From Victivallales bacterium (GTDB lineage: Bacteria; Verrucomicrobiota; Lentisphaeria; Oligosphaerales; Oligosphaeraceae), in assembly GCA_017535315.1 (NCBI GenBank), contig JAFXUD010000012.1, positions 124,001 through 188,000 of the forward strand: DNA of 64,000 nt, written 5' to 3'. Of the stretch, positions 36,217-53,428 are shown piece by piece. The notes under the pieces are model-generated. The model worked only from the letters and a program-made list of their open reading frames with translations, made no database searches and was not told where the DNA came from. The position numbers and the translations under genes are program-made. How positions within the stretch are numbered: position 1 is the stretch's first letter; every line of letters begins with the position of its first letter.

Positions 36217-38037
36217 ATGACTTTACATGAGTTGAAGTTTAAGGAGGACAATCAGGGGAAGCCGAAGATTGTCAATGTGAGCGTCTATCTATGCGTCGCA
36301 GGAGGCGTTGGTGGACCGTATGATTTAATGCAATTGTGCAGCATGTACAAGAATGGGCAGTTGCCGCCTGATACGCTTTGCAATTTTGGCACAGGGGACT
36401 GGCAGAGGCTCTTTGACATGCCGTTGATAAACATCATACGAGAGCACTGTACTTCGCAACCTGCTGAACCAGAATCGAAACCTGCCGAGTCAGAGTCCAA
36501 GTTTGTCGCCCCGAAAGAGGATACGGCAGAGGACGAGGAGACTTTTCTGGATGATTTTCTTGTGCCCAAGACAGACGATTATATGGACGATGACTCGCCC
36601 ATGATTACCTGCCCACACTGCTGGAACGAGTTCCACCTCTCCCAGGTTAACTACATCTCAAACCACCCCTCTTTGACGGGAGACAGTGTGCTGGGAGAGA
36701 CAGCGCAGACGCGCTTTTTGCCGAGCAAGTTCAATGCGCAGGGGTATGCCATCGATGCCAAGGGGATGGTTTGCCGTGATATGGCCTGCCCGCGCTGCCA
36801 CCTGAAGATTCCTGAGATACTATTGGAGGAGAAGATAGACGTGCTCTCCATCGTGGGCTCTCCCGCTAGCGGCAAGTCCTACTACATCACGGCCTTGACA
36901 AACGCGCTGCGGAAAAATCTGCCCGAGTTCTTCGACTACTCCTTCAGTGACGCGGATGTTAGCATGAACTACATGCTGAACCACTATGAGGACCTGCTGT
37001 TTCACAACAGCTCGGACGATGAGGTTGCACTGCCCAAGACAGAACTTGAGGGAAGCAATTTCTCCTCACAGGTTAATCTGAATGGTATCACCGTCAACCT
37101 CCCCCTGCCGTATATTTTTACCTTGCGGAAAATCCACGACAATACGGTCAGCGGAAACGGCAAGGGGTTCATGCACAATGTGGTGATGTATGACAATGCA
37201 GGTGAGCACTTTGAGGCTGGACGGGACAGCGTGGCCAACCTGGCTACCATGCATCTCATTAACTCCTCGCTCATCATGTTCTTGTTCGACCCCTTCAAGG
37301 ATAGCAAGGCGGTCAAGGATTGTGATGCCAACGACCCACAGGCGACCGTGGCCTTGCGGAACATTAACCAGGGGCAGATTCTGCGTGAGATGATCAACCG
37401 CATCAAGAAGTTCCGCGGAATGGCCTCCTTTGAGAAGTCGGACAAGATCCTCACGGTCCTCGTGCCGAAGTACGATGCCTGGAGTAACTCCTTCCCGTTC
37501 GATCTGAAGGATTTGGATTTCACCGCATTGGACGAAAAGACATACACCTATGCGTTGGACTTCTCTATTGTCAAGCTGATTTCCTACTGCACGCGGCAGT
37601 GGCTGTTGGCGCGCTCGCCTGAAATCGTCTCTGAAAGCGAGGCCTTCTTCGAGACGGTCTATTTCCTGCCAGTATCGGCGCTGGGGCATTGTCCAGGCTT
37701 CGATGCGACGAAGAACATGATCGGGATAAGGCCTAGCGACATCAACCCCATCTGGGTTGATGTCCCCATCTACATCTACCTCTGGAAGAGCGGCCTGGTA
37801 CCCGCCGTTAAGACCATACTGGACGTGGAGGCAACGGAGATGCAGGGTTCCTTCAAGAACGACAGTTTCTTTTTTCTTGACCAGAAAAGCAAGAGACCGC
37901 AGTCAGTGCCTGCACTCTACTGGGGTGAGACCGTCTATGACATGAACATGGGCAAGTACCTGAGTTTCCCAGAGAAGCCTGCTGACGCGGGAGGTGACTC
38001 GTCCGCTTCTGGGACAGCGGATTCCTTCTGGAATTGA
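36217..38037 (+). CDS. GYF/zinc-ribbon GTPase of the double-GTPase (DO-GTPase2) type
   Basis: 606 residues; first gene of the system. Residues about 17-75 (VYLCVAGGVGGPYDLMQLCSM, GQLPPDTLC, DWQRL) form a GYF_2-like domain. A split zinc ribbon uses CPHC (132-135) and CPRC (191-194). The P-loop GSPASGKS is at 214-221, with switch II motif DNAG (326-329, followed by EHFE) and PKYD (417-420) at the place of the base-recognition NKxD. This matches the P-loop GTPase family named double-GTPase 2 by domain-mining studies, which is found beside GAP1 proteins. No signal or membrane segment, so it is cytoplasmic. The next gene is a GAP1-like protein. Probably an NTP-driven switch for the membrane parts encoded downstream. 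Confidence 0.75.
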   Translation: MTLHELKFKEDNQGKPKIVNVSVYLCVAGGVGGPYDLMQLCSMYKNGQLPPDTLCNFGTGDWQRLFDMPLINIIREHCTSQPAEPESKPAESESKFVAPKEDTAEDEETFLDDFLVPKTDDYMDDDSPMITCPHCWNEFHLSQVNYISNHPSLTGDSVLGETAQTRFLPSKFNAQGYAIDAKGMVCRDMACPRCHLKIPEILLEEKIDVLSIVGSPASGKSYYITALTNALRKNLPEFFDYSFSDADVSMNYMLNHYEDLLFHNSSDDEVALPKTELEGSNFSSQVNLNGITVNLPLPYIFTLRKIHDNTVSGNGKGFMHNVVMYDNAGEHFEAGRDSVANLATMHLINSSLIMFLFDPFKDSKAVKDCDANDPQATVALRNINQGQILREMINRIKKFRGMASFEKSDKILTVLVPKYDAWSNSFPFDLKDLDFTALDEKTYTYALDFSIVKLISYCTRQWLLARSPEIVSESEAFFETVYFLPVSALGHCPGFDATKNMIGIRPSDINPIWVDVPIYIYLWKSGLVPAVKTILDVEATEMQGSFKNDSFFFLDQKSKRPQSVPALYWGETVYDMNMGKYLSFPEKPADAGGDSSASGTADSFWN

Positions 38038-38058
38038 TTTTTGGGAGGTACTGGCAAG

Positions 38059-39867
38059 ATGGCACTGGAACTAATATACACATCCGTTCCCCGTGGTCTG
38101 GAGCCTGGACGCACGGGCTTCTGCACTGTGGCCATGACGCGCGGAATGAGTCCGCAGATGGTCAAGATATTAGAGGGGCTGGTGGCCTACACGCCTGTCT
38201 TCGAGCACTATGATCCGAACAGCGCCTACAACCCCGCTTCCATTTTCCACTATCCCGTGTCAGACGGACGGAATCGCTTTGAGCTGCTGGCCCGTGTCTG
38301 TTCATGTGGACTGGATTATACCAAGCGCTCCAACAAGATCGGTCACTTCATCTTGCTGTCGGAGGCGGAGAAGGCGAACGCGGCAAATGGACCGACAAGT
38401 CTGCTGGCGGATCCACAGCTTTTCATTAACGAATGGCACGGAGAGCCGCAGTACTTTACGACTGAGCGTCCGCTGAACAATCAGGAGACGGCATCAGCGA
38501 AGGCGTATGCATGGGAGCAGGCGACAGGGGATGCAGGCTGGGCGGCCTGGCTGGCTGAGTCATATATGGCGAATCCTGACAAGCCCTGCTTCGTAGTCTT
38601 TGATCCGTTGCAACATACCAATCTTCAGGCTTTGGTGGCCGAATCGTTGATGCTGTTGCCGAAACGAAAGCGTTGGTCGGTCACCTGGAACACCTACATG
38701 ACGGCGATTTCCGCTGGCCTACCGACCTGCAATTGGCGTTTCTGCACGGCGAATCCTGCCGTAATGAGCGCGATTGGCTGCGTCTCGGGTGCGAACATTC
38801 TGGATTTGCGGCAAAGTCTTGGCTCCGCTGGTGAAAGCCCTCTGCGACAGTGTGCCAGGATGGGAAGCGACCTATATCCAGAGACGACGGAGAGAATGGT
38901 CTCCACGCCAGCAGTGCCGACCTCCTCGTCTTCCAGCGAAGGCCCGTCGCTTGTGGCGATGATGCAGAAACGGCTGGAGGAACAGAAGGCTGAGGAGCTG
39001 GCAGAACTCTCCAGCAATAAATCGAAACTGCGCCTGAAGAATCTGGATGAACCAGCACAACAGGGAGTTCCATATGGCGGATACCCAGTGAATGGAGGTT
39101 ACCAAGTGAATGGAGGCTACCCCGCGAATAGTGGAACGTCAAATAATTATATGCTGTGGTTAATAATTGTTGCACTTCAGTTTATTATAATTGCGGGGTT
39201 GGTGGTCTTTATTGTCAGGGAGAAGAGTGAAAAACAAACGATTATTGTGCAAATGGAGCGTCAAATCAATCAGTTACAAAAACAGATAGAGAAGAAGGGA
39301 TCGACTGAAAAGCCGATGGAGAATCAACCTGAACAGAGCCAAAGCAATGAACAATGCAGGAGTGTTTTCGCCTCTGATATTGAAAAGACGGACAATGGAC
39401 AATGTGCGGATAATACTATGTCTGACTTTGAAAAGACGGGCAGCGAAAAGCATGGTTCAAAGCCCGCCCCTGAATTTGGAAAGGCGGGCGAATCGAACGG
39501 TTTGCAGCCTCCATTACCGCCGGAGAACAGAAGATCGGATAAGACAAATGAAAAACCAAGTGAGGGGACGTTGCCATCCCTTCCAGGTGATATGAACGGA
39601 AGGAGGCCAGGTGAATCGGAAGATTTGCAGCCTCCATTACCGCCAGAGAACGGAAGATCGGATAAGACAAATGAAAAACCGAGTGAGGGGGCGTTGCCAT
39701 CCCTTCCAGGTGATATGAACGGAAGGAGGCCAGGCGAATCGGAAGATTTGCAGTCTCCATTACCGCCGGAGAACGGAAGACTGAATGGGGAAGGGAGGTC
39801 TGGAAGGAGAGGGCATGGAAAGCAAAAAAAGTTGGAAGATAGTTTGAAGTCTCATATTAGGCAATAA
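38059..39867 (+). CDS. GTPase-associated protein (GAP1-like) with membrane anchor and repeat tail
   Basis: 602 residues from ATG 38059 (GGGAGG upstream). The N-terminal 270 residues match the GAP1 N-terminal domain: LIYTSVPRGLEPGRTGFCTVAMTRGMSP, FEHYDPNSAYNPASIFHYPV, CGLDYTKRSNKIGHFILL, NNQETASAKAYAWEQATGDAGWAAWLAES, LPKRKRWSVTWNTYM. A Gly/Tyr-rich linker leads to a membrane helix near 363-385 (YMLWLIIVALQFIIIAGLVVF). A short coiled coil and a hydrophilic tail follow. The tail has a 41-residue unit (LPPENGRSDKTNEKPSEG...) repeated two to three times, encoded by 123-bp DNA repeats at 39490-39800. Known GAP1 proteins are linked to GTPases of this type. Here the anchor would bring the GTPase to the membrane complex. 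Confidence 0.75.
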   Translation: MALELIYTSVPRGLEPGRTGFCTVAMTRGMSPQMVKILEGLVAYTPVFEHYDPNSAYNPASIFHYPVSDGRNRFELLARVCSCGLDYTKRSNKIGHFILLSEAEKANAANGPTSLLADPQLFINEWHGEPQYFTTERPLNNQETASAKAYAWEQATGDAGWAAWLAESYMANPDKPCFVVFDPLQHTNLQALVAESLMLLPKRKRWSVTWNTYMTAISAGLPTCNWRFCTANPAVMSAIGCVSGANILDLRQSLGSAGESPLRQCARMGSDLYPETTERMVSTPAVPTSSSSSEGPSLVAMMQKRLEEQKAEELAELSSNKSKLRLKNLDEPAQQGVPYGGYPVNGGYQVNGGYPANSGTSNNYMLWLIIVALQFIIIAGLVVFIVREKSEKQTIIVQMERQINQLQKQIEKKGSTEKPMENQPEQSQSNEQCRSVFASDIEKTDNGQCADNTMSDFEKTGSEKHGSKPAPEFGKAGESNGLQPPLPPENRRSDKTNEKPSEGTLPSLPGDMNGRRPGESEDLQPPLPPENGRSDKTNEKPSEGALPSLPGDMNGRRPGESEDLQSPLPPENGRLNGEGRSGRRGHGKQKKLEDSLKSHIRQ

Positions 39868-39960
39868 CGGCTTTCATGGAGGAAAATGATGAGTTCTTCA
39901 TTTACAATCCCCAAAAAAACAGGAAAAAAAGAACAGGTTCAGTCAAAGGAGGGTCTGAGT

Positions 39961-40740
39961 ATGGTTGGTGAAACTATGAAACGAGATTATTTGAAGATAT
40001 TCTTTATTCTAGTTGTGCTGTTTTGGGCAATGGGTAGCCAGGCGAGTGTGGTGGAATTCAATGGGTGCGGAATGACGACAGGTTGTGCCTTTGAAACAAA
40101 AGAATATTTCCTCCAGACACCAGAGGAAACAAAGGTCGATAGCTTTGGCAAATCATACAAATGCCGCACAGATGATACAGGGATAAACCGAATCCTTCTT
40201 TGCGAAGGATATACCCCTCCTAAAAGCCTGGATGTTTTTAAACTCCATAGAAGGTTGGATTGTCTGATGGGTTTCTTGAATATTGCGCGAAAAAACAAGC
40301 TTTTAGATAATGACAAGATAAACATCATCAAGGATAGATTAGATAAAATTAGAACAGAGGGAGGTTACAGGTTTTTCAACGGGCGTTATTGGATTTACTA
40401 CTATCATTGGAATATTAATTTCCAAGCCGTCCAACAGACTGTGATAGTATGTGAGAGAGAAGCGGGAAAGAACTATGCGACATACTATGTCAAATGGAAC
40501 AGAGAAAGAATCAAGACATGCCAGGAGAGAACGACGATATTAAACACATGGTTTAAACAACAGAAGATGACACATTCTAAACTTGAGGACTACCATACAT
40601 GGGCACCAGAGTCAATAGGAGTGGTTTCCGCAAGAAATATTGATTACTTGGAAAAGGAAGTCATTTTTTACGAACAGGAAGGTGCCAATGATTTCCAGAC
40701 TTTCCTTGAAGAGTGGCGCCGTGGAGTCTATCCTCATTAA
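39961..40740 (+). CDS. Exported protein of unknown function
   Basis: 259 residues from ATG 39961, chosen because AGGAGG lies eight bases upstream and a signal peptide follows (MKRDYLKIFFILVVLFWAMGSQAS). An in-frame ATG at 39886 with a closer GGAGG is possible and would add 25 polar residues. The mature protein has four or more Cys (NGCGMTTGCAF, YKCRTDD, LLCEGY) that could form disulfides, then a helical region (LHRRLDCLMGFLNIARKNKLL, NYATYYVKWNRERIKTCQERTTIL). No family recognised. Base composition is more AT-rich than the GTPase genes. Position in the operon suggests a periplasmic part of the complex. Confidence 0.6.
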   Translation: MVGETMKRDYLKIFFILVVLFWAMGSQASVVEFNGCGMTTGCAFETKEYFLQTPEETKVDSFGKSYKCRTDDTGINRILLCEGYTPPKSLDVFKLHRRLDCLMGFLNIARKNKLLDNDKINIIKDRLDKIRTEGGYRFFNGRYWIYYYHWNINFQAVQQTVIVCEREAGKNYATYYVKWNRERIKTCQERTTILNTWFKQQKMTHSKLEDYHTWAPESIGVVSARNIDYLEKEVIFYEQEGANDFQTFLEEWRRGVYPH

Positions 40741-40797: not shown

Positions 40798-43700
40798 ATG
40801 GCCATTAATATTATAGCAGAAATCAGACAATTCATGCGTCAAGAAGATTTGACGGACAGGGATAGGATCGAGCGCCTGATGGATGGTTATATATCGGTTG
40901 TAAGGGAGTATAACGCCCTCTGCGAGCGGGTGCGTGGCCTGATCAAGAACAACATGGTGGAGGAGTTGGAGCGGTTTCTCAACGAGTTGGAGACGCCTTT
41001 GCAAGAACAGTATAAGGAGTTGCGGCAGCCAGCGGTGAAGGAGTTTCTGGAGATGGCGGAACTGTACGGCCTGGAAGTGCCCGCGCTGGAGAATGTTTTT
41101 GAGGAGATACAGGGGACGATGCTGAGCAGCATGGGGTTGCGTCCGCTGCTTATCCGATACCGCCAGATTGCCAGGAGCAATAACCTTCAGGCGAAGGTGG
41201 CGCTTATCCGCCAGATACTGGCGTTGAATCCAAAGGATGCGCTGGAGTGGGAGCGTAACCTGACCAGTTTTGAGGAGGAATGGAAGTTACAGTTGCAGGA
41301 GAGCGCCAAGCAGGCGATTCTATCCAAAGACTATCAGGAGTTGAAGCAAATTCAGGAGACCATATTGGAGGAGCCTTGGAAAACCCCCTTCAACGAACAT
41401 GTTGTGGTGAAGATGGCGCAGGTTTTGGAGGAAGAGGAGAAGCGGGCGAAGAAGCGGTTGTGCGAGCAACTCATTGCCTCCTCAGAGTCGATGTTGTCGC
41501 AGCCAGGGAAGCTGAAGGATGTGACAGCGTCCCTGGCGAAGGTGAATGCCCTTCAGATGGAGGGCAGTCAACTGGATTCCGACTGGCAACGACGCCTTGT
41601 GACCTTGGAAGAAAACACCAAAAAGCTTGTAGCGCAGGCGGCAGAGGAGGAGAAGTTTGCCAAGCTCTTCTTTGAACTGGAGCAGAAGATGAACGCCAAC
41701 GCACCTGTGGAAGAAGTCGATAAGATATTCTACGAGATGCAGCGGCTGCGGCGCGAGATTCCCGACATCACCATGAGGCGGGTTGATACTTACCGCCAGA
41801 ACGCGGTCATGGCCGCGAAACGGAAAAAGGGCATGATGCTTGTCATCGGCCTGATGACGGCTGTACTGCTTCTAGGTGCGGGAGTTGTGGTATTCAGGGC
41901 AGTCTCCAGAAGTCTGAGCATCAATGAGTATAGTGCCAGGCTGCGTACCGCCATTGACGACCAGGCGGCTCTCTCGGATGTCGGTTATGAGATTCTCAAG
42001 GAGATCGAGACGAAGGTGCCCGACATCCGAAACTCAAAGGAAATAGCGTCGCTGGCCGAGGAGGTTACCGCGAAGCGCAAGACGGAGGAAGGGAAGCGCG
42101 CCAGGTTCAAGGAACTCCAGTTGACACTTTCCACGCAGATGGAAAATTATTCGGAGAACGCAGTTTCCATTGTGGAGTTGATGAAGGAGATTCAGGGACA
42201 GGCTCTTCCCGAACACCAGAAGGAACTGGAGACCTTGACGCAATTGCACGACGAAAGGCGCGCCAAGTATGTGCGCGTCCAGGATTCCGCCTACCGCAAG
42301 CTGTGCGGGGATGCGGGTGATGCCTACATCGCGATGAAGACGGCGATGTCTGAGCACCGCTTTGACGATGCTCGCGAATACCTGCCCACCATCGCGGAAA
42401 AACTCAAGGCAGCCAATGAAATACCCGATGTCTCCTTCGATGCAAAGAGCGGGCTGAAAAACCTGGTTGAACAATATGTCCAGGCGGCAAAGACACTGGA
42501 GCAAAGTGTGATAGACAGTGAAATGGAGACCAGGCTCAAGTCGCTGGAAAAAAAGATGAAGGATTTCAGTGCCCATATTGACAATCAGCAGCTTGCGATG
42601 GCGGACGCGCTTTGCAAGGAAATAAATACGGAAGCGGTGGAGATTACACGCGACATAAAGAATGCCAGCACGTCATTGAGAAACCAATTTGCAACCTTAT
42701 TGGAAGACATCAAGGGATTCAATGGACGTCTGGATGCGGTTCGCAACCTGATTGCCGAGGAGGAGAAGGCGCTGACAAATGCCTTGGCCCAAAAAAAGTT
42801 GCAGGATGTGCAGTGGGCAATTCAGGAATTCCAGTCGAAGTATCCAAGCTTTTACAATAAAAAGGAAATAGCCAAGTTGATGGATGACTTTTCCAAGAGC
42901 CAGGAAGAGGCTGTCAAGGAGTATGATGCAGTACTCCATGCGAGAGGCCAGCGCTTCAACCAACTGGTCGAGCAGGTGGGGAAAGGGATGCTTGAGGAGT
43001 TGTTGAAACGCCGTGATGCGTATATTGCCAATCCCGTCTATATGCTTGGATTCACCAATACGCAAAACAATGTGCATGTGGATTTATACTTGAAAAGGAC
43101 GGATTTGGACAAGGCGGAGGAAGGAGTGCGATTCGACAAAAAGATGGCGAGCAGTTTATACTTCATCAACGACGCCAATGTAATGGGCTTGGAGAGAGAG
43201 GCGCAGGTAAGGATGGATTTGGACCATCATGTTTTGATGATTGGTAATAAGGTCTCATTCCCCATGACACTGGATTACCCTGGGTTGAATGACATCCGAA
43301 ACAAATCTTTTTTTAACTCTCCAGGCTACTATGGAACCTGGCTGCTTTCCATCAAGAATGACAGTTTTGATTTCAGTAAGCTGGAAGGATGGGAGAAGTT
43401 GGACAAAAGCCTTGAGATTTTGTTCAAGGAGAAATCCGATGGCATCCGAACCATTCACGAATGGCTTGGAATCATGGATTCTGTACTTGCCATCTCACAA
43501 GCGTTCCAGCAGGGCGGAGAATTCGAGGCGACGGAACTCCTGAATCTGAAGCAGGAACTTTTTAACCTGCTGGCTATATTGCCGAAAGAAAGCAGTTGGC
43601 AGTCAGCTTCATGGCTCTATCAGAATGAATGCAGTGAGTTCTACAAGAAGCTGAAAGAATTTGTCTATGGCGACTTTATAAAATGCGGTTTTCTACCGAC

Positions 43701-43977
43701 AATGAAACGTCTCGGGGAAAGAAAGGTGGAGGATCAGAAGGTGCTTGTACCCTGCGGGGTCATGGCGTGGCGCACATTGGATGGCATTTCCAACTGGTAT
43801 TTTTACTATACTGACCTTCCAATAAACAGCGAGGGGCCGTTGTTTTTCGCAGACCACGGCCAAAAGAAAAGCATCCAAATTGGAACCTATCGCGAACAGG
43901 GCTATAAACTAAACTGGAATTACAGTGGGGGCGAGGATTTGCCCAAGGGCTATTATGTTGTGTTCATCAAGAAATAA
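40798..43977 (+). CDS. 1059-residue membrane-anchored coiled-coil protein
   Basis: The first 340 residues have no export signal and are helical (ERLMDGYISVVREYNALCERV, repeats of QxxLxxL type). A single membrane helix lies near 344-365 (MMLVIGLMTAVLLLGAGVVVF), preceded by basic residues (AAKRKKG). The remaining 690 residues begin with a long coiled coil (to about 740), then a globular C-terminal domain (LHVDLYLKRTDL, SSLYFINDANVMG, SPGYYGTWLLSIKNDSFDF, WRTLDGISNWYFYYTDLP, GYYVVFIKK). Topology is therefore cytoplasm in, periplasm out. It would span the envelope and link a cytoplasmic regulator to the cell wall or outer membrane. It is 12 bp before the proton-channel gene. No known family. Confidence 0.65.
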   Translation: MAINIIAEIRQFMRQEDLTDRDRIERLMDGYISVVREYNALCERVRGLIKNNMVEELERFLNELETPLQEQYKELRQPAVKEFLEMAELYGLEVPALENVFEEIQGTMLSSMGLRPLLIRYRQIARSNNLQAKVALIRQILALNPKDALEWERNLTSFEEEWKLQLQESAKQAILSKDYQELKQIQETILEEPWKTPFNEHVVVKMAQVLEEEEKRAKKRLCEQLIASSESMLSQPGKLKDVTASLAKVNALQMEGSQLDSDWQRRLVTLEENTKKLVAQAAEEEKFAKLFFELEQKMNANAPVEEVDKIFYEMQRLRREIPDITMRRVDTYRQNAVMAAKRKKGMMLVIGLMTAVLLLGAGVVVFRAVSRSLSINEYSARLRTAIDDQAALSDVGYEILKEIETKVPDIRNSKEIASLAEEVTAKRKTEEGKRARFKELQLTLSTQMENYSENAVSIVELMKEIQGQALPEHQKELETLTQLHDERRAKYVRVQDSAYRKLCGDAGDAYIAMKTAMSEHRFDDAREYLPTIAEKLKAANEIPDVSFDAKSGLKNLVEQYVQAAKTLEQSVIDSEMETRLKSLEKKMKDFSAHIDNQQLAMADALCKEINTEAVEITRDIKNASTSLRNQFATLLEDIKGFNGRLDAVRNLIAEEEKALTNALAQKKLQDVQWAIQEFQSKYPSFYNKKEIAKLMDDFSKSQEEAVKEYDAVLHARGQRFNQLVEQVGKGMLEELLKRRDAYIANPVYMLGFTNTQNNVHVDLYLKRTDLDKAEEGVRFDKKMASSLYFINDANVMGLEREAQVRMDLDHHVLMIGNKVSFPMTLDYPGLNDIRNKSFFNSPGYYGTWLLSIKNDSFDFSKLEGWEKLDKSLEILFKEKSDGIRTIHEWLGIMDSVLAISQAFQQGGEFEATELLNLKQELFNLLAILPKESSWQSASWLYQNECSEFYKKLKEFVYGDFIKCGFLPTMKRLGERKVEDQKVLVPCGVMAWRTLDGISNWYFYYTDLPINSEGPLFFADHGQKKSIQIGTYREQGYKLNWNYSGGEDLPKGYYVVFIKK

Positions 43978-43989
43978 GGAGAAGGATAG

Positions 43990-44955
43990 ATGGTACGTTA
44001 TGAACTGAATTTCCAGGAGCTGGACCCCGAGGCGAAAATGGGGCTGACACCCCAGAAGTACACGGCTGTCAGCGCGATATGGACTTTCTTCCTGGGGCTG
44101 CTGTTTACTGGAGTCTTCTACGGGGCGATGTATCCGCTCCACGCGCGGCACAAGTGGCAGATGGTCGATATGTTCTTTCACGGCGGCGTGGAGAACCGCT
44201 CTACCATCCCCTACTTTACGATGTTCCTGACCTGCTGGTGCCTGGCGTTTCTCTTTGTCAAGTGGCGCAAGCTGGCCGCGCAGCGGAAGGCGCTGTCGTT
44301 GGTATTCACCCCTCCCGACAGCCGTTTCGTCATCACGCGGCTGATTGCGGGGCCGCTGGTCAACCAGTTGCACCAGCGTGTCTATCAGAGCGAGAAATTC
44401 ATGCTCTTCTGGCGGATTGAATGCGCCCTGAATGAGCTGGACAACTTGGGGCACGTCTCCGAGGTGTCGGCGGTGATGAACGACCTGGCGGAGAACGACG
44501 CCAACCTGGTGGAGAGCAGCTATACCCTGACGAAGGGGCTCATCTGGGCCATCCCCGTGCTGGGCTTCATCGGGACGGTGCTGGGGCTAAGCCAGGCGGT
44601 TGGCGGCTTCGGCTCCGTTGTCAGCAGTGGGGCTGATTTGGAAACGCTGAAGGACGCGTTGAGCGGCGTGACCTCTGGCCTTGGCACGGCCTTCGAGACG
44701 ACGCTCATCGCGCTTGTCGCGGCGTTGATTGTCCAGTTGCTCATGACGCTTCTGATGCGCAAGGAGGAGGAGTTCCTTGACGAATGCTCAACCTACTGCT
44801 ATGCCAATGTGACCAGCAAATTGAAGATTTTCGGCGAGAATGAGACCGACAACCTCTCAAGCGTTTCGGCGGGGCTTCTTGACGGAAATATTAGTGTAAC
44901 TGGCGGCCTTGGTGCAGCCATGGACACGCCTGACGGCACGGCTGAAAAGAAGTAA
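43990..44955 (+). CDS. MotA/TolQ/ExbB-type proton-channel subunit
   Basis: 321 residues, ribosome-binding site AAGGAGAAGG. Four membrane helices lie at about 26-48, 73-91, 183-205 and 236-256. The third holds IPVLGFIGTVLGLSQAVGG with Thr196, the family position that lines the ion path in TolQ and MotA. The fourth follows GLGTAFETTLIALVAAL, also typical. The long loop between helices 2 and 3 is cytoplasmic and helical (LNELDNLGHVSEVSAVMNDLAENDANL). Pentamers of this family surround two ExbD/MotB-type helices and rotate on proton flow. The next two genes supply such helices, so this is the motor core of the system. Confidence 0.88.
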   Translation: MVRYELNFQELDPEAKMGLTPQKYTAVSAIWTFFLGLLFTGVFYGAMYPLHARHKWQMVDMFFHGGVENRSTIPYFTMFLTCWCLAFLFVKWRKLAAQRKALSLVFTPPDSRFVITRLIAGPLVNQLHQRVYQSEKFMLFWRIECALNELDNLGHVSEVSAVMNDLAENDANLVESSYTLTKGLIWAIPVLGFIGTVLGLSQAVGGFGSVVSSGADLETLKDALSGVTSGLGTAFETTLIALVAALIVQLLMTLLMRKEEEFLDECSTYCYANVTSKLKIFGENETDNLSSVSAGLLDGNISVTGGLGAAMDTPDGTAEKK

Positions 44956-44979: not shown

Positions 44980-45852
44980 ATGAAAGACCGCGGCGCGCCC
45001 ATAAGCCTGTTTTCCTTCCAGGACATCGTCACAAGCCTGACGGGCATCATGGTGATTGTGATACTTGTCATCGTGCTACAACTGGCGGAGGCGAGGTTCG
45101 ACTACGAGAATCCGAAGTCCGACAACTCCGAGTATCTGGAGATGAAGGCGAAGATGAAGGAGTTGGCGGAACAATTAAAGCAGTTGAAGGAGGCTGGCGA
45201 GGAGATACCCGAGGAGGTCAAGGCCTACCTCAACATCTCCGTCGAGGCCGTTGATGCCCAGCTTCAGGATGCGGAGAAGGCAACGGCTGCAATGACCGCC
45301 GAGAAGGAGCGGAACGAAAAGGAAATGGTGACGATGAAACTCACCCTTGGACAGTTGAAGGAGCTGCTCAAGGGCCTCAATGCGGAGAAGAAGGAGAAGG
45401 AGGCGAAGCGGGATGTCGTCGATGAAAAGGTGGCGGCTGCGGAGAAGGATGATTCCTCCAATACGCTGGAACGCCAATTGCAGACGCTTCAATTGGAGAA
45501 TGAGCGGCTGAAAAACAACATCCGCATCACAGCGGACAAGGTGGAGTTCTCCTTTGTGGGTATAATGTCCCGACAGCCCATTCTCATCGAGTGTACGGGG
45601 AATGGCTTCCGTGCGCAGGTCTATAAGAGCGGTCAACCCGTCAAGGAATTCAGGGGCGGCGGGTTGAGTTCGAGTATCTCTGGCCTAGTTGCATGGCTGC
45701 GTCAGCAGGACCTGAAGAAGAGCTATCCTGTCCTCCTGCTGCGGAGGAGCTTTTTCTCGCATCTGGATGATCTTCTGATTACCCTGTATCGTCTTGACAA
45801 GGATATCGTCCTTGGCATGGAGCCGCTGGATGACAAGGTGAAGGTGTTCTGA
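44980..45852 (+). CDS. ExbD/MotB-like subunit 1
   Basis: 290 residues; one N-terminal membrane helix (SFQDIVTSLTGIMVIVILVIVLQL) with Asp15 at its cytoplasmic edge, the position of the proton-binding Asp of ExbD, TolR and MotB. A periplasmic coiled coil follows (about 48-185, Glu/Lys/Leu-rich). Then comes a compact alpha/beta domain (KVEFSFVGIMSRQPILIECTGNGFRAQVY, ISGLVAWLRQQDLKKSYPVLLLRRSFF, LITLYRLDKDIVLGMEPLDD) that resembles ExbD periplasmic domains in size. There is no OmpA-like peptidoglycan-binding domain. Ribosome-binding site GAGAGG. Its stop overlaps the next start (TGATG), so the two ExbD-like proteins are probably made in equal amounts. Confidence 0.8.
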   Translation: MKDRGAPISLFSFQDIVTSLTGIMVIVILVIVLQLAEARFDYENPKSDNSEYLEMKAKMKELAEQLKQLKEAGEEIPEEVKAYLNISVEAVDAQLQDAEKATAAMTAEKERNEKEMVTMKLTLGQLKELLKGLNAEKKEKEAKRDVVDEKVAAAEKDDSSNTLERQLQTLQLENERLKNNIRITADKVEFSFVGIMSRQPILIECTGNGFRAQVYKSGQPVKEFRGGGLSSSISGLVAWLRQQDLKKSYPVLLLRRSFFSHLDDLLITLYRLDKDIVLGMEPLDDKVKVF

Positions 45853-46790
45853 TGAGCAGGAAAAACAAATTGCCCGACAGCCTGGAGCTACTTCTGGACA
45901 CGATGTGCAACACTTTCGGAGCCATTATGTTCATCGCGATTTCGCTGGTCATCATCTCGCAGGTGACGACGAAGATGATTCGCGATATGCAGCCGCAGGA
46001 GATTACGGAGGAGTATCTGAAGCAAATGCGGGAGAGGATTCGCGCTCTGGAAGATGAACTGGCCGTGGAGGAGCAGAAGATGGCGGAGAGGGCGTTGGCC
46101 GCTCTCGCCATGCCCCAGAAGAAGAGGGAGAAGGTGGAGAAGGTATTGGACGCGAAGGCCCAAAACCAGAAACTCATCCTTGACCTCTCCCATCAGGTTG
46201 ACGAGAAGACGAGGATGCAGAATGAACTGGAGAACGCTAGGAACGAGGTGGAGAATACAAGGAACGAGGCAGCACAGTTGGAGATGGAGACAACCCAGAA
46301 GGAACGCGCTCTTGCGCAGATGATTCTGGCTAACCAGCAGCGGAAGGAGGAAATGCAAAGGCGAATCGAACAGGCGAGGAAGGAGCAGGCAAACTTGAAC
46401 AGGACGCAGGAGAATACATCTCCTCAGATGCTGACTTTCTCTATGGAAATCAGCACAACAGGCGAAAGGCAGTACACCATCTGCTTGAAAAACAAACGGC
46501 TTTACAAAGTGGATGCAGACGAAGTTGAGGTAGTGAAGGACAGCGAAGAGGAAGGCCATTTTTCCTTTAAGGGCAATGGACACCTCATTTCGGGAAATGT
46601 CGATGGCGAGATCCGCAGGCTTTTGGGCGGTGTCAGCCAGGGAAGGTTTGTCACTGTTTTCAGTGACCAGGCAAGCTATGACGTGCTGGTGGCCTTGCGC
46701 AAATACTTCCGTTCACGAAGAATCAAGATGAACTTCAATTATACGAACGACTGGAAATGCTGGTTTGGCGAAGTAAAAGCCTCGTATTAA
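45852..46790 (+). CDS. ExbD/MotB-like subunit 2
   Basis: 312 residues. One N-terminal membrane helix (LLLDTMCNTFGAIMFIAISLVIISQV) with Asp16 at the same place as in subunit 1, but otherwise a different sequence. A long coiled coil follows (45-195). The C-terminal domain (SPQMLTFSMEISTTGERQYTICLKNKRLY, GHLISGNVDGEIRRLLGGVSQGRFVTVFSDQASYDVLVALRKYF) looks like a small alpha/beta domain, comparable in layout to subunit 1. Translation is coupled to subunit 1 by a one-base stop/start overlap. Two different Asp-bearing stators suggest a heterodimeric inner rotor or stator (inference). Confidence 0.8.
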   Translation: MSRKNKLPDSLELLLDTMCNTFGAIMFIAISLVIISQVTTKMIRDMQPQEITEEYLKQMRERIRALEDELAVEEQKMAERALAALAMPQKKREKVEKVLDAKAQNQKLILDLSHQVDEKTRMQNELENARNEVENTRNEAAQLEMETTQKERALAQMILANQQRKEEMQRRIEQARKEQANLNRTQENTSPQMLTFSMEISTTGERQYTICLKNKRLYKVDADEVEVVKDSEEEGHFSFKGNGHLISGNVDGEIRRLLGGVSQGRFVTVFSDQASYDVLVALRKYFRSRRIKMNFNYTNDWKCWFGEVKASY

Positions 46791-46801
46791 GGATGATGGC
46801 A

Positions 46802-49006
46802 ATGATGAAACGGATTTGGGTGATTGTGATTGTTTGTCTGTGTGGCATGGCATTTGTTTCCTGCAAGCCGAACCCCCCGAAGGAGGCGAAGGCAAAGGAA
46901 CTAGTGGAGACGCATTTCAAGGAGAAGGGGTATGCGGTGAAATGCGTGACACTGGGCGCATATAGTCAACTTGGAGAGGGTAGATGGTCTGCGGAAGTGG
47001 AGGTCAAACGGGACGATGACGAACAGATGTTCACCTACGAGGTGGAGTTCAAGGCACTAAAGAAGGGGTATGAACTATCCTGCGGCTTCGAGTATATGCT
47101 TGAACTGGACGACCTCGTAAAGAGGAAAGTGAACGAAAATATCAACAAAAACCAGTTCAAAATCCTCTCAATAGGGAAAGTGCCGCAGAAAACGGATGGG
47201 GCTGTCAACAAGGACGTGAAACCATTTTCTTTGGGCGTGGAGGTTAAATACATGCTCTTTGACCCCTCCCGTATACCTGAAGGGGATGTCTCGGCGCAAC
47301 CGAAGAAAGAGGCTCGTGGCGAAATCGGTTTCTCCCCTGAGATTACGCAGTTGCAGACAAGGTTGTTCAACAAGGACATGTTGCTTTTAGGGGTTCTTGA
47401 GGAATGCATCAAGGAGCAGATTGTCAATGAGTTTATGGAGGAGTATTTTATAACGGTCACAGTGGATGCGTTTCAGTCTCTGTACGAGAATGGCAAGAAC
47501 GGTTATTCGGGCAAGGCGAAAATCTCGAATAAAAAGCGAAAGCTATCTGGTCTGCTCAGCTTTGACCTGGTTCTCGTGGAGAATGGCTTCTGCAAGGTGA
47601 CCTGCCACAAAAATGGTTTTGAGAAATGGATGGTGGACGAGGGGAAGGATGCCAAATGGCGTAAACGCCGTCTTGAGATTCTGGCACAGGCCTGGAAGCT
47701 GGCCTGGGATCCAGAGAAACTCCATGACGAGGAGTACCATCCACTGGGAAACGCATTGGTCGAGATGGCGAACAATGCCATTAGGAATGAATACAGATCA
47801 AGTTTTTGGGGGGACTATACAAAGCTGAAGCCTGAAGAGAAGCTCAACTATATGTCCAGCATCATCACCACCCAAACGATATCCTTTGAGGGGCAGAGTT
47901 TCACCAAAAGCATGCTTGGGAGTGAATATGGGGCAATCAGTGTGAACACCCTTCCGCCTCTGCCCACTTTGTTCGATTCCAGTTCACTTGACTCGGATAA
48001 GTTTCCAAAGGTGGATTTGGAAACATGGGAAAAGGAGATAGAGATGGACATCAAGCGGGAACTGGAGGAAAAGTACGATCTCCGATTCATGTCGGATTCC
48101 GATTATCTTGAGAAGGCGTATCCCATTTATCAGAAACTTGACAAGGCGACTGTCACGGTAAAGGAGGAGCGGGGCGTGAAGAATGTGAAAATCATAGGAA
48201 TGGTCAAGGCCATTGGCGAAAACAAGGTTATGATCGGTCCACGAACCATCCTTATTGAAGACCTTACTGAAGAAAGCCGACTTAGTTTTGACATGAATTT
48301 TCGCGAAAAAAAGTTCAAGGAAATCCATTTCAATGATGCAATGAGGCTGAAGTTGATTACTCAACTCCGTCAGCCCATGCATGATCGTCGCCTCTGCATC
48401 AAATTGCAGGAGGCTGGGTATCTGCCCAATGTCTTCAAGGCGAAAACAGGTCTATACAACCCCGATGCGGAAACTTGGGTCTCGCAATATGATTTCCTGG
48501 CTCACTGGCTACGGGCGCACCTCATTGCCAAGGATCTCCTGGAAAAGGAAGGCTATGTCTATAGCCTGAACATGAAGAACCGCTACGAATGGATGCCGAA
48601 GAAGTGCGCGGAAAACTTTGCCACCTACCTCAGGGTTAAGAACGCGCGGCTGATCCATTTGGGAGAGGTTATGAGGGAACGCAGGAAAGAGCTTGAGAAG
48701 ATGAGAATGGATGGCTACTCCGATGAAGCCATTGAACGTGCCATCTGGAGGGAATTCGGACGAACGAACCAGGGGGATTACGGCAGATGCCTCTTCTGCA
48801 AGGGGACTGGCATGGAAGTGAAGTACACGGGTGGTGGGTTTTACAAGAAGATAGAATGCCGTGCCTGCTACGGAACAGGAAAAACCTCCAATGTCGATGA
48901 CGTAACTCTGGACGCAAGTGGAAATGTCGTCGAAAACACTGTCGAAGAATTCGAGGACGAGGAGTTCTGGAACACTGGCACAGTGGTTCCAGTACCATTA
49001 GAGTAA
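46802..49006 (+). CDS. Large lipoprotein with C-terminal DnaJ-like zinc motif
   Basis: 734 residues. Several ATGs occur (46793, 46802, 46805); 46802 is best placed after AAGGATGATGG. The signal MMKRIWVIVIVCLCGMAFVSCKP has a lipobox with Cys21, so the protein is lipid-anchored. Residues about 25-110 resemble the beta-rich C-terminal domain of the 276-residue protein further downstream (WSAEVEVKRDDDEQMFTYEVEFKALKK). The middle is mixed helical. Near 663-695 two CxxCxGxG-type motifs (CLFCKGTG and CRACYGTG) form the zinc site known from DnaJ, surprising in an envelope lipoprotein. It starts 11 bp after ExbD-like subunit 2 and so belongs to the complex. Family unknown. Confidence 0.6.
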   Translation: MMKRIWVIVIVCLCGMAFVSCKPNPPKEAKAKELVETHFKEKGYAVKCVTLGAYSQLGEGRWSAEVEVKRDDDEQMFTYEVEFKALKKGYELSCGFEYMLELDDLVKRKVNENINKNQFKILSIGKVPQKTDGAVNKDVKPFSLGVEVKYMLFDPSRIPEGDVSAQPKKEARGEIGFSPEITQLQTRLFNKDMLLLGVLEECIKEQIVNEFMEEYFITVTVDAFQSLYENGKNGYSGKAKISNKKRKLSGLLSFDLVLVENGFCKVTCHKNGFEKWMVDEGKDAKWRKRRLEILAQAWKLAWDPEKLHDEEYHPLGNALVEMANNAIRNEYRSSFWGDYTKLKPEEKLNYMSSIITTQTISFEGQSFTKSMLGSEYGAISVNTLPPLPTLFDSSSLDSDKFPKVDLETWEKEIEMDIKRELEEKYDLRFMSDSDYLEKAYPIYQKLDKATVTVKEERGVKNVKIIGMVKAIGENKVMIGPRTILIEDLTEESRLSFDMNFREKKFKEIHFNDAMRLKLITQLRQPMHDRRLCIKLQEAGYLPNVFKAKTGLYNPDAETWVSQYDFLAHWLRAHLIAKDLLEKEGYVYSLNMKNRYEWMPKKCAENFATYLRVKNARLIHLGEVMRERRKELEKMRMDGYSDEAIERAIWREFGRTNQGDYGRCLFCKGTGMEVKYTGGGFYKKIECRACYGTGKTSNVDDVTLDASGNVVENTVEEFEDEEFWNTGTVVPVPLE

Positions 49007-49060: not shown

Positions 49061-50181
49061 ATGAAACTGTTCATAAAGACACAAGGCAGGATTCTTGGCC
49101 CAATGAAGTGGGAAAGGATTCTCAAGACGGCGGACAGGGGATGCCTTGCGCCAGATGCGACTGTTTCCGATAATCAAGTGAACTGGCTTAACGTTGACGA
49201 GGCACGTAAACTTCTTGAAAAAAAGGAATCGACTGCGGCGGTTGTTTTTTCATCACGGTTTCAGAGCTCACACTCCCTTTCAACAACTCCATTGCAGAGC
49301 GATTCGGATATTTCTCACAAATGCCTAGAATGGACTGAGTTGAAAAGCTCCATGGAGACTGAATCGGATTTTCAGGGGAAGTCTCTAAAACAAATCAACG
49401 ATGCACAAAATGAAATTCAAGAGGCCATCGTTGGCGCAAAGAGCCAGAGTTTTTCTCGACTGCTTTTGCTAGAAAGTGGGATGGCGATACTGCTGGTCGT
49501 ATGGACTATTGTGCTTTGGTTAAATAGAGACTCTTCATCTTCCAAAGACCATGATGACAAGGGAATAACGGGTGAGGTTCTGACATCACGTCAAATCAAT
49601 GAATTGGCTACACCGAGTGTCCTTGCTGTTTGGGTGGAAACGAATTCTGGTTGGAGTACTGGATCGGGCATTCCCGTAACGCAACGGGATGTTCTGACAA
49701 ACAGACATGTCGTGGAGGAGATTGGAGAAGGTGGAGAAGTGCTGGTTTATAATGAAAAATGGGATAATCCAAGGGGGAAAACTGCAAAGAAAATCATCGA
49801 CTGTTGATTTGGCGTGGAAGTTATGAATGATTCTTTTCCAGTCAAGCCGTTGAAGACTTCCAACAACAAATCGTAACGCGGCGATAACGTTGACGCATAC
49901 GGCTATCCTGGATATGCGTACGATTTCGGAAAGGAGAATACAAAGGTGAGAGGAACAAGCGGACAAATTTCAGCGGTGGATTTGCCTGAGAAAGGAGCCT
50001 TGCATTATGAGCATACTGCTGCATTAAACCATGGCAATAGCGGTGGTCCACTTTCAATGACCATGGTGAAGAGGTAGATGTGAATACCTGGATCATTGAA
50101 AACACGAACAGTTCTTTTTTTGCAATAGAAATCAGTGAACTCAAAAAGGTCTTCCCACGTCTTTGGAATAAGGCACAATAA
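49061..50181 (+). pseudogene. GYF-domain trypsin-like protease, broken by frameshifts
   Basis: The intact part is 248 codons (to 49807): GYF_2 domain (MKLFIKTQGRILGPMKWERIL, about 1-55), linker, membrane helix (LLLESGMAILLVVWTIVLWL, about 143-163), then the start of a serine protease with catalytic His in VLTNRHVVEE. After the stop, the same protein continues in other frames. From 49887 to 50076 one reads DAYGYPGYAYDFG... and NHGNSGGPL, which contains the catalytic Ser. From 50055 to 50181 another frame gives FNDHGEEVDVNTWIIEN and the end LKKVFPRLW. At least two frame disruptions and a TAA near 49874 therefore separate the His and Ser parts. Other operon members are intact, so this is recent decay, or sequencing errors. 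Confidence 0.75.
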
Positions 50182-51105: not shown

Positions 51106-52497
51106 ATGCATGTGAGATGTCCAAATTGCGGATGCACATTCGAGGTGGAAGAATCGCAATGGCGCAAACTGGTTGCATGTCCGGTGTGCCAAAAGGACGT
51201 TATAGCTAGAACCGTGTCGTTCTCAAAGGCTACAAAAGGGATAACGCCTCCTCCGCCGACAAACGAGATAGTTTCTTCTCATCCGACAGAGATGAAGTTT
51301 CCTCCTCCAACAGAGAAGGTAACACCGCTGACAAGTATGGTTCCTCCCTCTTCAGTTGAGAAGGTACCACCGCCAAAAGTAACTTTTTCAACGCAGGGAA
51401 AGTCTCCCTCAATAAAAGCGATCAAGTGGACGCGATCGATATGTCTATTCTTATTGGTCATTTCGTTTTTGGTGGTTTTCATTTGGATTAGAAGCAGCAT
51501 TGCCGCCGCGAACATCGTGATAGAGACGTTGGTTCATAATCCAGACAAGTGTTTGTCTTTTGAGGAGATTGCAATCGTGCGTAAAGCCGCCGAGAAGGGG
51601 TACGCCAAAGCGCAATTTTTTCTTGGAGAATGCTATCAAAAGGGCAATGGCGTGGCTAATAATCCGTTTGATGCAGTCAACTGGTACCGTTTGGCCGCAC
51701 GCAGGGTAATCATATGGGGAGGATATGCTGAAGCGCAATATAAACTTGGGGTGTGCTATCGTGATGGCAAGGGTGTGAAACAGGACTACGCAGAAGCAGT
51801 GAAATGGTTCCAAAAGGCAGCCAAGCAAGGGGTTGCTAAAGCACAAAACGATCTTGGGAGTTGCTATCGTGATGGTAGGGGTATAGCAAAGGATAATTTT
51901 GAGGCGGCCAAATGGTTCCATTTGGCCGCCGAGCAAGGGGCTGATCTTGCACAATACAATCTCGGAATTTGCTATTGTAATGGCACTGGTGTAGATAGAG
52001 ACCACAAGGAGGCATTCAATTGGTTCAGCAGGGCTGCTAAGCAAGGGAATGTTGCTGCTCAACGTGACGTTGGATGCTTGTATTTTTTTGGTGAACATGG
52101 AATGACAAAAGACAATGCCAAAGCGTTTTACTGGTTTTATAAATCTGCAACGCAGGATGATGCAGAGGCACAATTTTACCTGGGTATCTGCTATATTTAT
52201 GGTTTGGGTACCAAACAGGATGACGGTGAGGGGCTCAAATGGCTGCGTTTTTCTGCTGCACAGGATTACATTGAAGCAGAATATTATCTTGGTCTATGTT
52301 GTCTTGAAGGGCAAATCGTACCAAGAGATTTGGAGGAGGCAACGAGATGGCTGGGCAAAGCTGCCATGCAGGGACATGAGAAGGCACGGCAACTCCTTAA
52401 GGTATTAACGACGGAACGAGGCACCGCGCATAAGGAGAATTGCTTTTCTTCTGATGCATCCAGAAGCGTTGAGATAATCAGAAGAAAACGGAGATAG
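51106..52497 (+). CDS. Zinc-ribbon membrane protein with seven Sel1-like repeats
   Basis: 463 residues. MJ0042-type zinc ribbon with Cys5, Cys8, Cys25 and Cys28 (RCPNCGCTFEV, CPVC). A Pro/Thr/Ser-rich linker (30-105) leads to a membrane helix at about 111-130 (SICLFLLVISFLVVFIWI). From about 160 to 440 seven Sel1-like repeats follow, each with the pattern AxAQxxLGxCYxxGxGVxxDxxEAxxWxxxAAxQG. Sel1 repeats form a helical solenoid for protein binding; here they would be on the outer side of the inner membrane if the zinc ribbon is cytoplasmic. The three downstream relatives share the same N-terminal module. It begins 18 bp after the previous gene. Confidence 0.75.
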   Translation: MHVRCPNCGCTFEVEESQWRKLVACPVCQKDVIARTVSFSKATKGITPPPPTNEIVSSHPTEMKFPPPTEKVTPLTSMVPPSSVEKVPPPKVTFSTQGKSPSIKAIKWTRSICLFLLVISFLVVFIWIRSSIAAANIVIETLVHNPDKCLSFEEIAIVRKAAEKGYAKAQFFLGECYQKGNGVANNPFDAVNWYRLAARRVIIWGGYAEAQYKLGVCYRDGKGVKQDYAEAVKWFQKAAKQGVAKAQNDLGSCYRDGRGIAKDNFEAAKWFHLAAEQGADLAQYNLGICYCNGTGVDRDHKEAFNWFSRAAKQGNVAAQRDVGCLYFFGEHGMTKDNAKAFYWFYKSATQDDAEAQFYLGICYIYGLGTKQDDGEGLKWLRFSAAQDYIEAEYYLGLCCLEGQIVPRDLEEATRWLGKAAMQGHEKARQLLKVLTTERGTAHKENCFSSDASRSVEIIRRKRR

Positions 52498-52499
52498 AC

Positions 52500-53330
52500 A
52501 TGCATGTGAGATGTCCAAATTGCGGATGCACGTTTGAGGTGGATGATTTGCAATGGCGCAAACTGGTTGAATGTCCAGTGTGCGGAAAGGCTATAGAAGC
52601 AAAGACTGTGCAGGTCAATATGGTTTCCCATACTCCTTCAAACGGGATGATTCCGCCGTCGTCTTCGGACGGTGCCGTTCCGCCGACGACTTTGATTGAG
52701 ACGGTGCAGCCTCCGCGCGGGAAAGTAATGTCATCACAGCAGAAGTGTGGTGAACTCAGTATCACGACCAGACTTTGGTTGCTGCTTTGTTCACAGATCA
52801 GGGGCTGCTTTTCATTTAGCGGCTTTGTATTGTTCTTCGCTTTTTTCTGTGCAGTCATGGGGTATTTGAGCTTTTCAAACTCTATGAGTCCAGATGAAAT
52901 CGCAAAGAAGGCTCGTGAAACGGACTTGCCTGAATTCTTTCAGAACAAGGAGTTTGTTTATTACGGCGGTGTCGTGAAGGATTTGAAACTCAGCATAAGC
53001 GAGAAAAAGCTATATACTGGGGAAGTGACATTTACCCTTGATGGTAAAACACTTGTACGCCCTATTTCAGTGAGAATCAAGGAAGATGGAGAATATGAGT
53101 ATGGCGTGGATTTTGATTATGCACAACACGATGATTATCTTGAGGAAGATGCGAAGTGGATTATGAATAACATCTTAAGAGCAAATAACCTAAGCGCGAA
53201 AATACTCAAAACGTATGTTGTATCGCCAGGAGTATTCCAGGCGACATTGCGATTTGACGAGGGTGTGAAAGTGGTGAGAGTTCGTGTCCAACGCAAGAGC
53301 AGGAAATATTTCTACGAGGTCATAGAATAA
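52500..53330 (+). CDS. Zinc-ribbon membrane protein with C-terminal beta-rich domain
   Basis: 276 residues; two bases after the previous stop, with GGAG. The first 35 residues are the same zinc ribbon (Cys5, 8, 25, 28; CTFEVDDLQWRKLVECPVC) as in the neighbours. A linker (SSSDGAVPPTTL) precedes a membrane helix at about 100-122 (FSGFVLFFAFFCAVMGYLSF). The C-terminal 140 residues (EFVYYGGVVKDLKLSISEKKLYTGEVTFTL, GEYEYGVDFDYAQHDD, LRFDEGVKVVRVRVQRKSRKYFYEV) resemble part of the 479-residue neighbour and the lipoprotein upstream, so this domain recurs in the operon. Function unknown. Confidence 0.65.
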   Translation: MHVRCPNCGCTFEVDDLQWRKLVECPVCGKAIEAKTVQVNMVSHTPSNGMIPPSSSDGAVPPTTLIETVQPPRGKVMSSQQKCGELSITTRLWLLLCSQIRGCFSFSGFVLFFAFFCAVMGYLSFSNSMSPDEIAKKARETDLPEFFQNKEFVYYGGVVKDLKLSISEKKLYTGEVTFTLDGKTLVRPISVRIKEDGEYEYGVDFDYAQHDDYLEEDAKWIMNNILRANNLSAKILKTYVVSPGVFQATLRFDEGVKVVRVRVQRKSRKYFYEVIE

Positions 53331-53428
53331 ACGAAAGTGAGGGGACTTCATATCTTTTTGCGGAATTGGGGTAATGGATATGTCAACGATGTCCCTAATG
53401 AAGCATAAAGACAAGATAGGAGCAGATA

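Follow-up and report, generated by a model that had tools for sequence, protein, structure and literature searches.

The window (the whole stretch of 64,000 nucleotides analysed, from a 4.9 Mb genome in 96 contigs) carried a gene for a MotA/TolQ/ExbB-like channel protein, A, followed by two genes for unlike ExbD-like axle proteins, D1 and D2; these, the conserved upstream genes and the adjoining ones are listed in Table 1.

Table 1. Features of the channel/axle operon and its neighbors (positions counted from the first letter of the window)
Feature	Coordinates	Strand	Remarks
GYF_2 + DO-GTPase2 double-GTPase protein	36217..38037	+	Pfam
GAP1-N2/GAP1-M GTPase-associated protein	38041..39867	+	hydrophobic segment 374-392
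P284a, unknown protein within operon	39886..40740	+	one TM
P1059, long helical protein; conserved upstream partner	40798..43977	+	one TM (348-366)
A, MotA/TolQ/ExbB-like channel subunit	43990..44955	+	321 aa; PF01618
D1, first ExbD-like axle	44980..45852	+	290 aa; TM with Asp15, helical stalk, alpha/beta end domain
TGATG overlap, D1 stop/D2 start	45850..45854	+	one base, 45852, common to TGA and ATG
D2, second ExbD-like axle	45852..46790	+	312 aa; TM with Asp16, helical stalk, alpha/beta end domain
P749, unknown lipoprotein-like protein adjoining D2	46757..49006	+

The channel protein reached 36.4 bits against PF01618 (cut-off 22.9) and is thus a member of the Pfam MotA/TolQ/ExbB family. It had about four hydrophobic segments (near residues 25-43, 72-90, 183-211 and 238-256), and the conserved threonines expected of a pore were found for its last two transmembrane helices (T196, T228, T237 and T238, invariant in 43 of 43 aligned sequences); we take these residues to be the equivalents of TolQ T145/T178. 

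Upstream, the GTPase protein matched PF19993 (28.1 bits, cut-off 27) and PF14237 (27.7 bits, cut-off 25.8), and its neighbor matched PF20013 (81.9 bits) and PF20014 (28.9 bits; cut-off 24 for both), so that an adjacent DO-GTPase/GAP1-N2 gene pair was present in the window. P1059, for which the Pfam scan gave no family above cut-off, is a possible force transducer or anchor. P284a was not seen in relatives, and P749 (749 aa) had a counterpart in one near relative only; a DnaJ-type CxxCxGxG zinc motif lay near the end of P749 (sub-threshold match). Further downstream, positions 49061-49807 encoded a trypsin-like start (weak Trypsin_2 match) that ended soon after the His motif, and this protease domain looks cut short. 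Three consecutive genes at 51106-54868 began with zinc-ribbon matches, the first also carrying Sel1 repeats, and are possibly variable parts of the same system.

Sequence and predicted structure of D1 and D2

Both axle proteins had one N-terminal transmembrane helix with an Asp of the proton-binding type, as in ExbD and TolR: segment 15-33 in D1 (Asp15 codon 45022-45024, signature F.FQD) and segment 17-35 in D2 (Asp16 codon 45897-45899, signature LLLDxMCNxFG). AlphaFold2 monomer models (mean pLDDT 85.1 for D1 and 89.0 for D2) predicted this helix, a long helical stalk and a C-terminal alpha/beta domain. BLASTP aligned 63 residues of the two proteins at 32% identity (E 0.012), and hhalign joined their profiles with 99.5% probability at 12% identity, a score probably inflated by coiled coils; at the level of profiles, D1 and D2 are relatives. 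The initial annotation had described two unlike ExbD-like proteins after one ExbB-like gene, each with such a helix, stalk and domain, and a one-base overlap between their genes, all of which was borne out at the exact coordinates given in Table 1.

The two proteins are named ExbD-like, and not ExbD, because PF02472 was not reached: the Pfam scan of window proteins, which admitted E values up to 1, matched it to neither D protein, neither ExbD nor MotB was among the 25 commonest Pfam families of 47 D1 and 48 D2 members, and ExbD was not found in the Pfam scans of D proteins from the other working groups described below (types II, III, IV, V and VI). Structural comparison with VIA-align placed the D1 end domain near TolR (5by4: Z 8.5, rmsd 3.0, 84 residues aligned, rank 2) and ExbD (8pek: Z 7.8), and the D2 end domain near both at Z 5.6, with unrelated RNase H-like and actin-like folds tying; the D1 domain was the more TolR-like of the two. 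Foldseek ranked ExbD first for D2 (E 0.38), and for neither protein did its list contain a match at E 0.001 or below. Sequence searches of the PDB led no further, with 0 matches at E up to 0.1 for query A3 and essentially coiled coils among the 60 matches listed for query A1. The modeled end domains therefore show a suggestive resemblance to TolR/ExbD, weak and not unique, other folds tying with it.

Recurrence of the gene trio and its neighborhood

The 242 loci carrying A were scanned with a transmembrane-segment profile whose Asp column had been masked, and removal of 43 duplicates left 199. Two D proteins were found by the profile in 172 of the 199 and 8 pairs were added by eye where the profile had missed one or both, giving two D proteins downstream of A in 180 of 199 non-redundant loci; as the profile was trained on windows chosen by flanking motifs, very odd D proteins may escape it. 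The 19 loci without an Asp pair, left out of the analysis, comprised four that stop at A (L113, L289, L345, L384), three with space for no more than the first D (L137, L140, L321), eight with one or both D genes elsewhere (L082, L141, L142, L144, L145, L152, L163, L175) and four others: L341 without a second D, L359 without a first D, and L364 and L371 without any D in about 5 kb. Its presence in 180 of 199 non-redundant loci makes the arrangement of one channel and two unlike D proteins more than a chance occurrence.

At the level of genomes, D1 matched 40 and D2 matched 42 of 198 genomes, nearly the same set. The scan of genome contigs retained 80 of 350 relatives. Of fourteen genomes picked for a broken or odd trio, 11 had both D genes and 3, all drafts, had D1 without D2; the L145 genome yielded D1 only. 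One subunit always occurring without the other, which the initial annotation had named as grounds for rejecting its proposal, is thus not what was seen. The nearest relatives with named contigs were Victivallales/Lentisphaeria metagenome-assembled genomes, many of rumen and gut origin.

The 180 pairs were sorted, from channel similarity and helix motif, into six working groups under our own labels. Type I contained 104 pairs, including that of the window; type II, 30 pairs with a long A (mostly 430-530 aa); type III, 20 pairs with short D proteins; type IV, 19 pairs, one scanned pair giving a weak VWA_3 match (24.9 bits, cut-off 27); type V, 4 pairs; and type VI, 3 pairs. With few exceptions, the D1 proteins of types I, II and V had Phe and their D2 proteins Leu at -2 from the Asp, and Asn stood at +4 in D2; since this pattern is common to three types, the D1/D2 split is old. 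The helices of types III, IV and VI had Phe at -2 in both genes, that is, two D proteins of one kind. The D1 and D2 signatures differed in all 104 type I pairs (Lentisphaeria, Planctomycetota, Verrucomicrobiota and Desulfamplus), and in every pair of types II (30 of 30) and V (4 of 4) the first gene was D1-like and more so than the second. A recent tandem duplication of no functional meaning, which the overlap of adjacent genes might suggest, is ruled out by the depth of this split. In 70 of the 104 type I loci, an available start codon for D2 overlapped the D1 stop codon by 4 bases or by 1.

Two further observations concern unusual members of these groups. Within type I, five loci (L089, L093-L096) stood apart as a more distant second subtype, in which both D proteins were present. 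In three type IV-like loci (L323, L324, L364), the gene right after the channel gene encoded a protein of some 490 aa that looked actin-like by eye; in L323 and L324 it precedes the axle pair.

The recurring gene order was GTPase, GAP1, P1059, variable protein(s), A, D1 and D2. Among type I loci, 53 had 8.5 kb or more of upstream sequence, and in 47 of these profile matches to GTPase, GAP1 and P1059 were all found upstream; exceptions to the set were L074/L108, L089, L093, L144, L145 and L152, and in L089 and L093 none of the three was seen in the stretch fetched (at least 8.5 kb upstream). Pfam confirmed GAP1-N2 in a Desulfamplus locus (L136) and in a planctomycete locus (L173); DO-GTPase2 was just under its cut-off in the latter (26.2, cut-off 27) and missing from the former, which had GYF_2 and FHA. 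This gene order suggests that GTPase, GAP1 and P1059 may serve as control and anchor of the motor.

Stalk lengths, membrane Asp and axle composition

Stalk length was measured from the Asp column to where the end domain begins, in 103 complete type I pairs, one of the 104 being incomplete at a contig end. Median lengths were 160 for D1 and 161 for D2, and the two lengths were strongly correlated (raw r 0.90; r 0.84 for phylogenetic contrasts on the A tree). The coupling was also seen when a second pair of anchors was used (r 0.76), when short stalks were excluded (r 0.77, n=95) and in the first-fetched Lentisphaeria set (r 0.82, n=46), and the D2 minus D1 difference had a standard deviation of 5.4, vs. 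11.4 and 12.2 for the single stalks. Controls gave no such correlation: end-domain lengths of D1 vs. D2 (contrasts r -0.05), A length vs. the stalks (r 0.01 and -0.05), and P1059 length vs. the stalks (r -0.12 and -0.09 in 57 loci, where D1 vs. D2 gave 0.73). The stalks also matched in four genomes that carry D1 and D2 on separate contigs (93/104, 92/104, 98/110 and 149/154); they were unmatched in the L138 genome (155/131). Among 33 sister pairs both stalks had changed in 16, in the same direction in 12 of these, and the sizes of the changes were often unequal, which counts against perfect register. The Desulfamplus genomes behind L142, L144 and L152 had A, D1 and D2 scattered over contigs, and both stalks were short (about 92-110 residues).

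The membrane Asp was present in both genes in 136 of the 180 pairs, absent from the first gene in 42 and from the second in 2; it was never absent from both. That both D proteins carry an Asp, as initially annotated, is therefore true of the window and does not hold as a family rule, one partner being without it in 44 of 180 pairs. The replacing residues were Ser (23), Cys (7), Asn (7) and Ala (5) in first genes and Gly in the two second genes. Loci with a partner lacking the Asp include L304, L306 and L315; of the culturable hosts, which include Victivallis vadensis DSM 14823, Botrimarina colliarenosi and Brevifollis gellanilyticus, the last has Ser naturally in place of the D1 Asp. First-gene losses were found in 5 of 104 type I pairs (in addition to the two second-gene losses), 14 of 30 type II, 19 of 20 type III and 4 of 4 type V pairs, and parsimony on a FastTree tree of A gave at least 6 changes of first-gene state and 2 of second-gene state (at least 8 in total). 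First genes kept Gly at +7 even without the Asp (101 of 104 in type I, 30 of 30 in type II and 20 of 20 in type III), together with the flanking pattern of the pore helix. Because only 2 of 180 second genes had lost it, the absence of double losses is by itself not significant, being near chance expectation, and mutual exclusion was dropped as a statistical test; what carries the argument is that a first protein without the Asp has long been retained next to a channel that still has its pore motif. In five loci (L166, L172, L296, L299, L301) an Asp took the place of the D2 Asn at +4, and D1 lacked its own Asp in the first three; this residue is possibly a shifted proton site.

The sequences show that the system combines one A, two non-equivalent D proteins of ancient pairing, matched stalks and an Asp in at least one helix. 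Coupled stalk lengths and one-sided Asp loss favor an A5:D1:D2 motor with a single heterodimeric axle, to which, as an inference, we give a probability of roughly three in four. Five A subunits would surround one D1 and one D2 helix in the pore, in the manner of ExbBD, TolQR and MotAB. Protons leaving the Thr ring in the pore of A would reach the Asp of D1 and that of D2 alternately, or the remaining Asp alone in lineages that have lost one, and their passage would turn A against the D1-D2 axle. The stalks would lie alongside each other in a heterodimeric coiled coil, their coupling being explained by two stalks of equal length leaving one pore, and would carry two unlike ExbD/TolR-like end domains into the periplasm, with the GTPase/GAP1 pair and the membrane protein P1059 gating or anchoring the motor from the cytoplasmic side. 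The asymmetric motor of the initial annotation is in this respect partly supported, having gained the coupled stalks and the one-sided loss of Asp, the heterodimer itself still being an interpretation. Counting against it are the weak TolR/ExbD matches of the end domains, the failure of both D proteins to reach Pfam ExbD and the three of 14 genomes, all drafts, with D1 and without D2.

Matched stalks would also be expected if two homodimers must reach the same layer, and one channel might thus serve two alternative motors, A5-(D1)2 and A5-(D2)2, with different periplasmic outputs. Separable functions of this kind are described for the tandem exbD genes of Xanthomonas campestris, where exbD1 and not exbD2 is needed for iron uptake (PMC3551730), and the like helices of types III, IV and VI, with Phe at -2 in both, would suit such motors. 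We nevertheless consider them unlikely, as the stalk lengths change together and an Asp-less partner is hard to explain by two homodimers: its own homodimeric motor would lack a site for protons (42 of 180 pairs for the first gene, 2 of 180 for the second), and yet the Asp-less first gene was kept in 19 of 20 type III pairs. A motor could accommodate such a partner only where its companion helix, in the same dimer, carried the Asp.

It is more doubtful still that D2 alone forms the pore axle, with D1 as a TonB/TolA-like transducer or regulator outside the pentamer. The transmembrane helices of TonB and TolA are described as binding to the outside of their pentamers (PMC12905483), and the Asp, often missing from D1, was kept by D2 in 178 of 180 pairs. 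However, D1 retained it in 138 of 180, and in two loci (L149 and L279) it was D1 that had the Asp and D2 that had lost it; the Gly at +7 and the flanking pattern persisted in D1 even without the Asp, and the D1 end domain was the one closer to TolR (Z 8.5). The recent duplication mentioned above, at odds with the differing D1 and D2 signatures of all 104 type I pairs and with the D1-likeness that orders types II and V as well, deserves practically no credence.

A wider reading, which we put forward tentatively and would not call probable, takes the heterodimeric motor as one example of a widespread motor class with an obligate hetero-pair axle. Several of its lineages would have the ion-binding carboxylate on one helix, with one proton per 72-degree step and not two alternating, and the branch of the window would be a GTPase-controlled, envelope-spanning machine with unlike end domains binding different partners.

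Comparison with known motors and GTPase systems

Stalk coupling, loss of Asp from one partner and the GTPase link were not found in a search of open-access journal papers by title and start of abstract. The neighborhood of the window resembles the GAP1-N2 type DO-GTPase systems with GYF proteins described in the same phyla by Kaur et al. 2020 (PMC7159879): DO-GTPase2, GAP1-N2 and GYF proteins, PVC bacteria and a membrane theme are shared. The FNIII protein of GAP1-N2 systems was not among the 20 window proteins scanned, and the main text of that paper has no occurrence of MotA, ExbB or ExbD. With the motor described here, the GTPase-based conflict systems of PVC bacteria would gain a module that generates force.

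Zorya joins a MotA/MotB-like motor of 5:2 stoichiometry, ZorAB, to a system of the conflict type (PMC11890865). Unlike D1 and D2, ZorB is one protein, and membership in Zorya was rejected: A scored 11.5 bits with the NCBIfam ZorA model (cut-off 100), ZorA models matching at the superfamily level only, and no ZorC, ZorD or ZorE was found among the 10 proteins scanned. The tonB-exbB-exbD1-exbD2 genes of X. campestris (PMC3551730) likewise combine one exbB with tandem exbD genes, and that account gives no sign of an obligate pair; because exbD2 is dispensable there for iron uptake, tandem exbD genes need not form obligate heterodimers. One TolQ-like gene with two unlike axle genes, as here, is also described in the section on vWA transducers of PMC12204202, which does not mention GTPases, stalk coupling or one-partner Asp loss; type IV pairs fit its TPH-vWA pairs, with the VWA_3 match (24.9 bits) under the cut-off of 27.

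With the 5:2 motors ExbBD, TolQR and MotAB the system shares a PF01618 channel, a single-helix partner with a membrane Asp and a TolR/ExbD-like end domain. It differs from them in having two unlike partners, not two copies of one, and, in some relatives, an Asp on one partner only. Current 5:2 models have two identical Asp residues that swap protonation with every 36-degree step (PMC12905483). A motor with unlike axle proteins, of which one can lose its Asp, would offer a natural test, without engineering, of the need for both carboxylates, and an asymmetric axle would allow one to ask what such asymmetry does.

The closest precedent is AglRQS, the gliding motor of Myxococcus xanthus, with one TolQ-like and two TolR-like proteins (PMC3169522, PMC9389320); one TolQ with two TolRs is thus already known, and the initial statement that known motors use two copies of one protein overlooked it. 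As in AglRQS, where each partner has a transmembrane Asp, one MotA/TolQ-like gene and two unlike TolR-like genes lie together in the 180 of 199 loci. In contrast with AglQ (162 aa) and AglS (194 aa), which match PF02472 (PMC3169522), D1 and D2 have a helical stalk of roughly 160-180 residues, do not match PF02472 and are encoded beside a DO-GTPase/GAP1 pair. Whether AglRQS contains a hetero- or a homodimer is called unknown in PMC9389320, and one group of authors has suggested that its two partners are coupled subunits of one motor (PMC9120999); the trio described here may provide a handle on this question.
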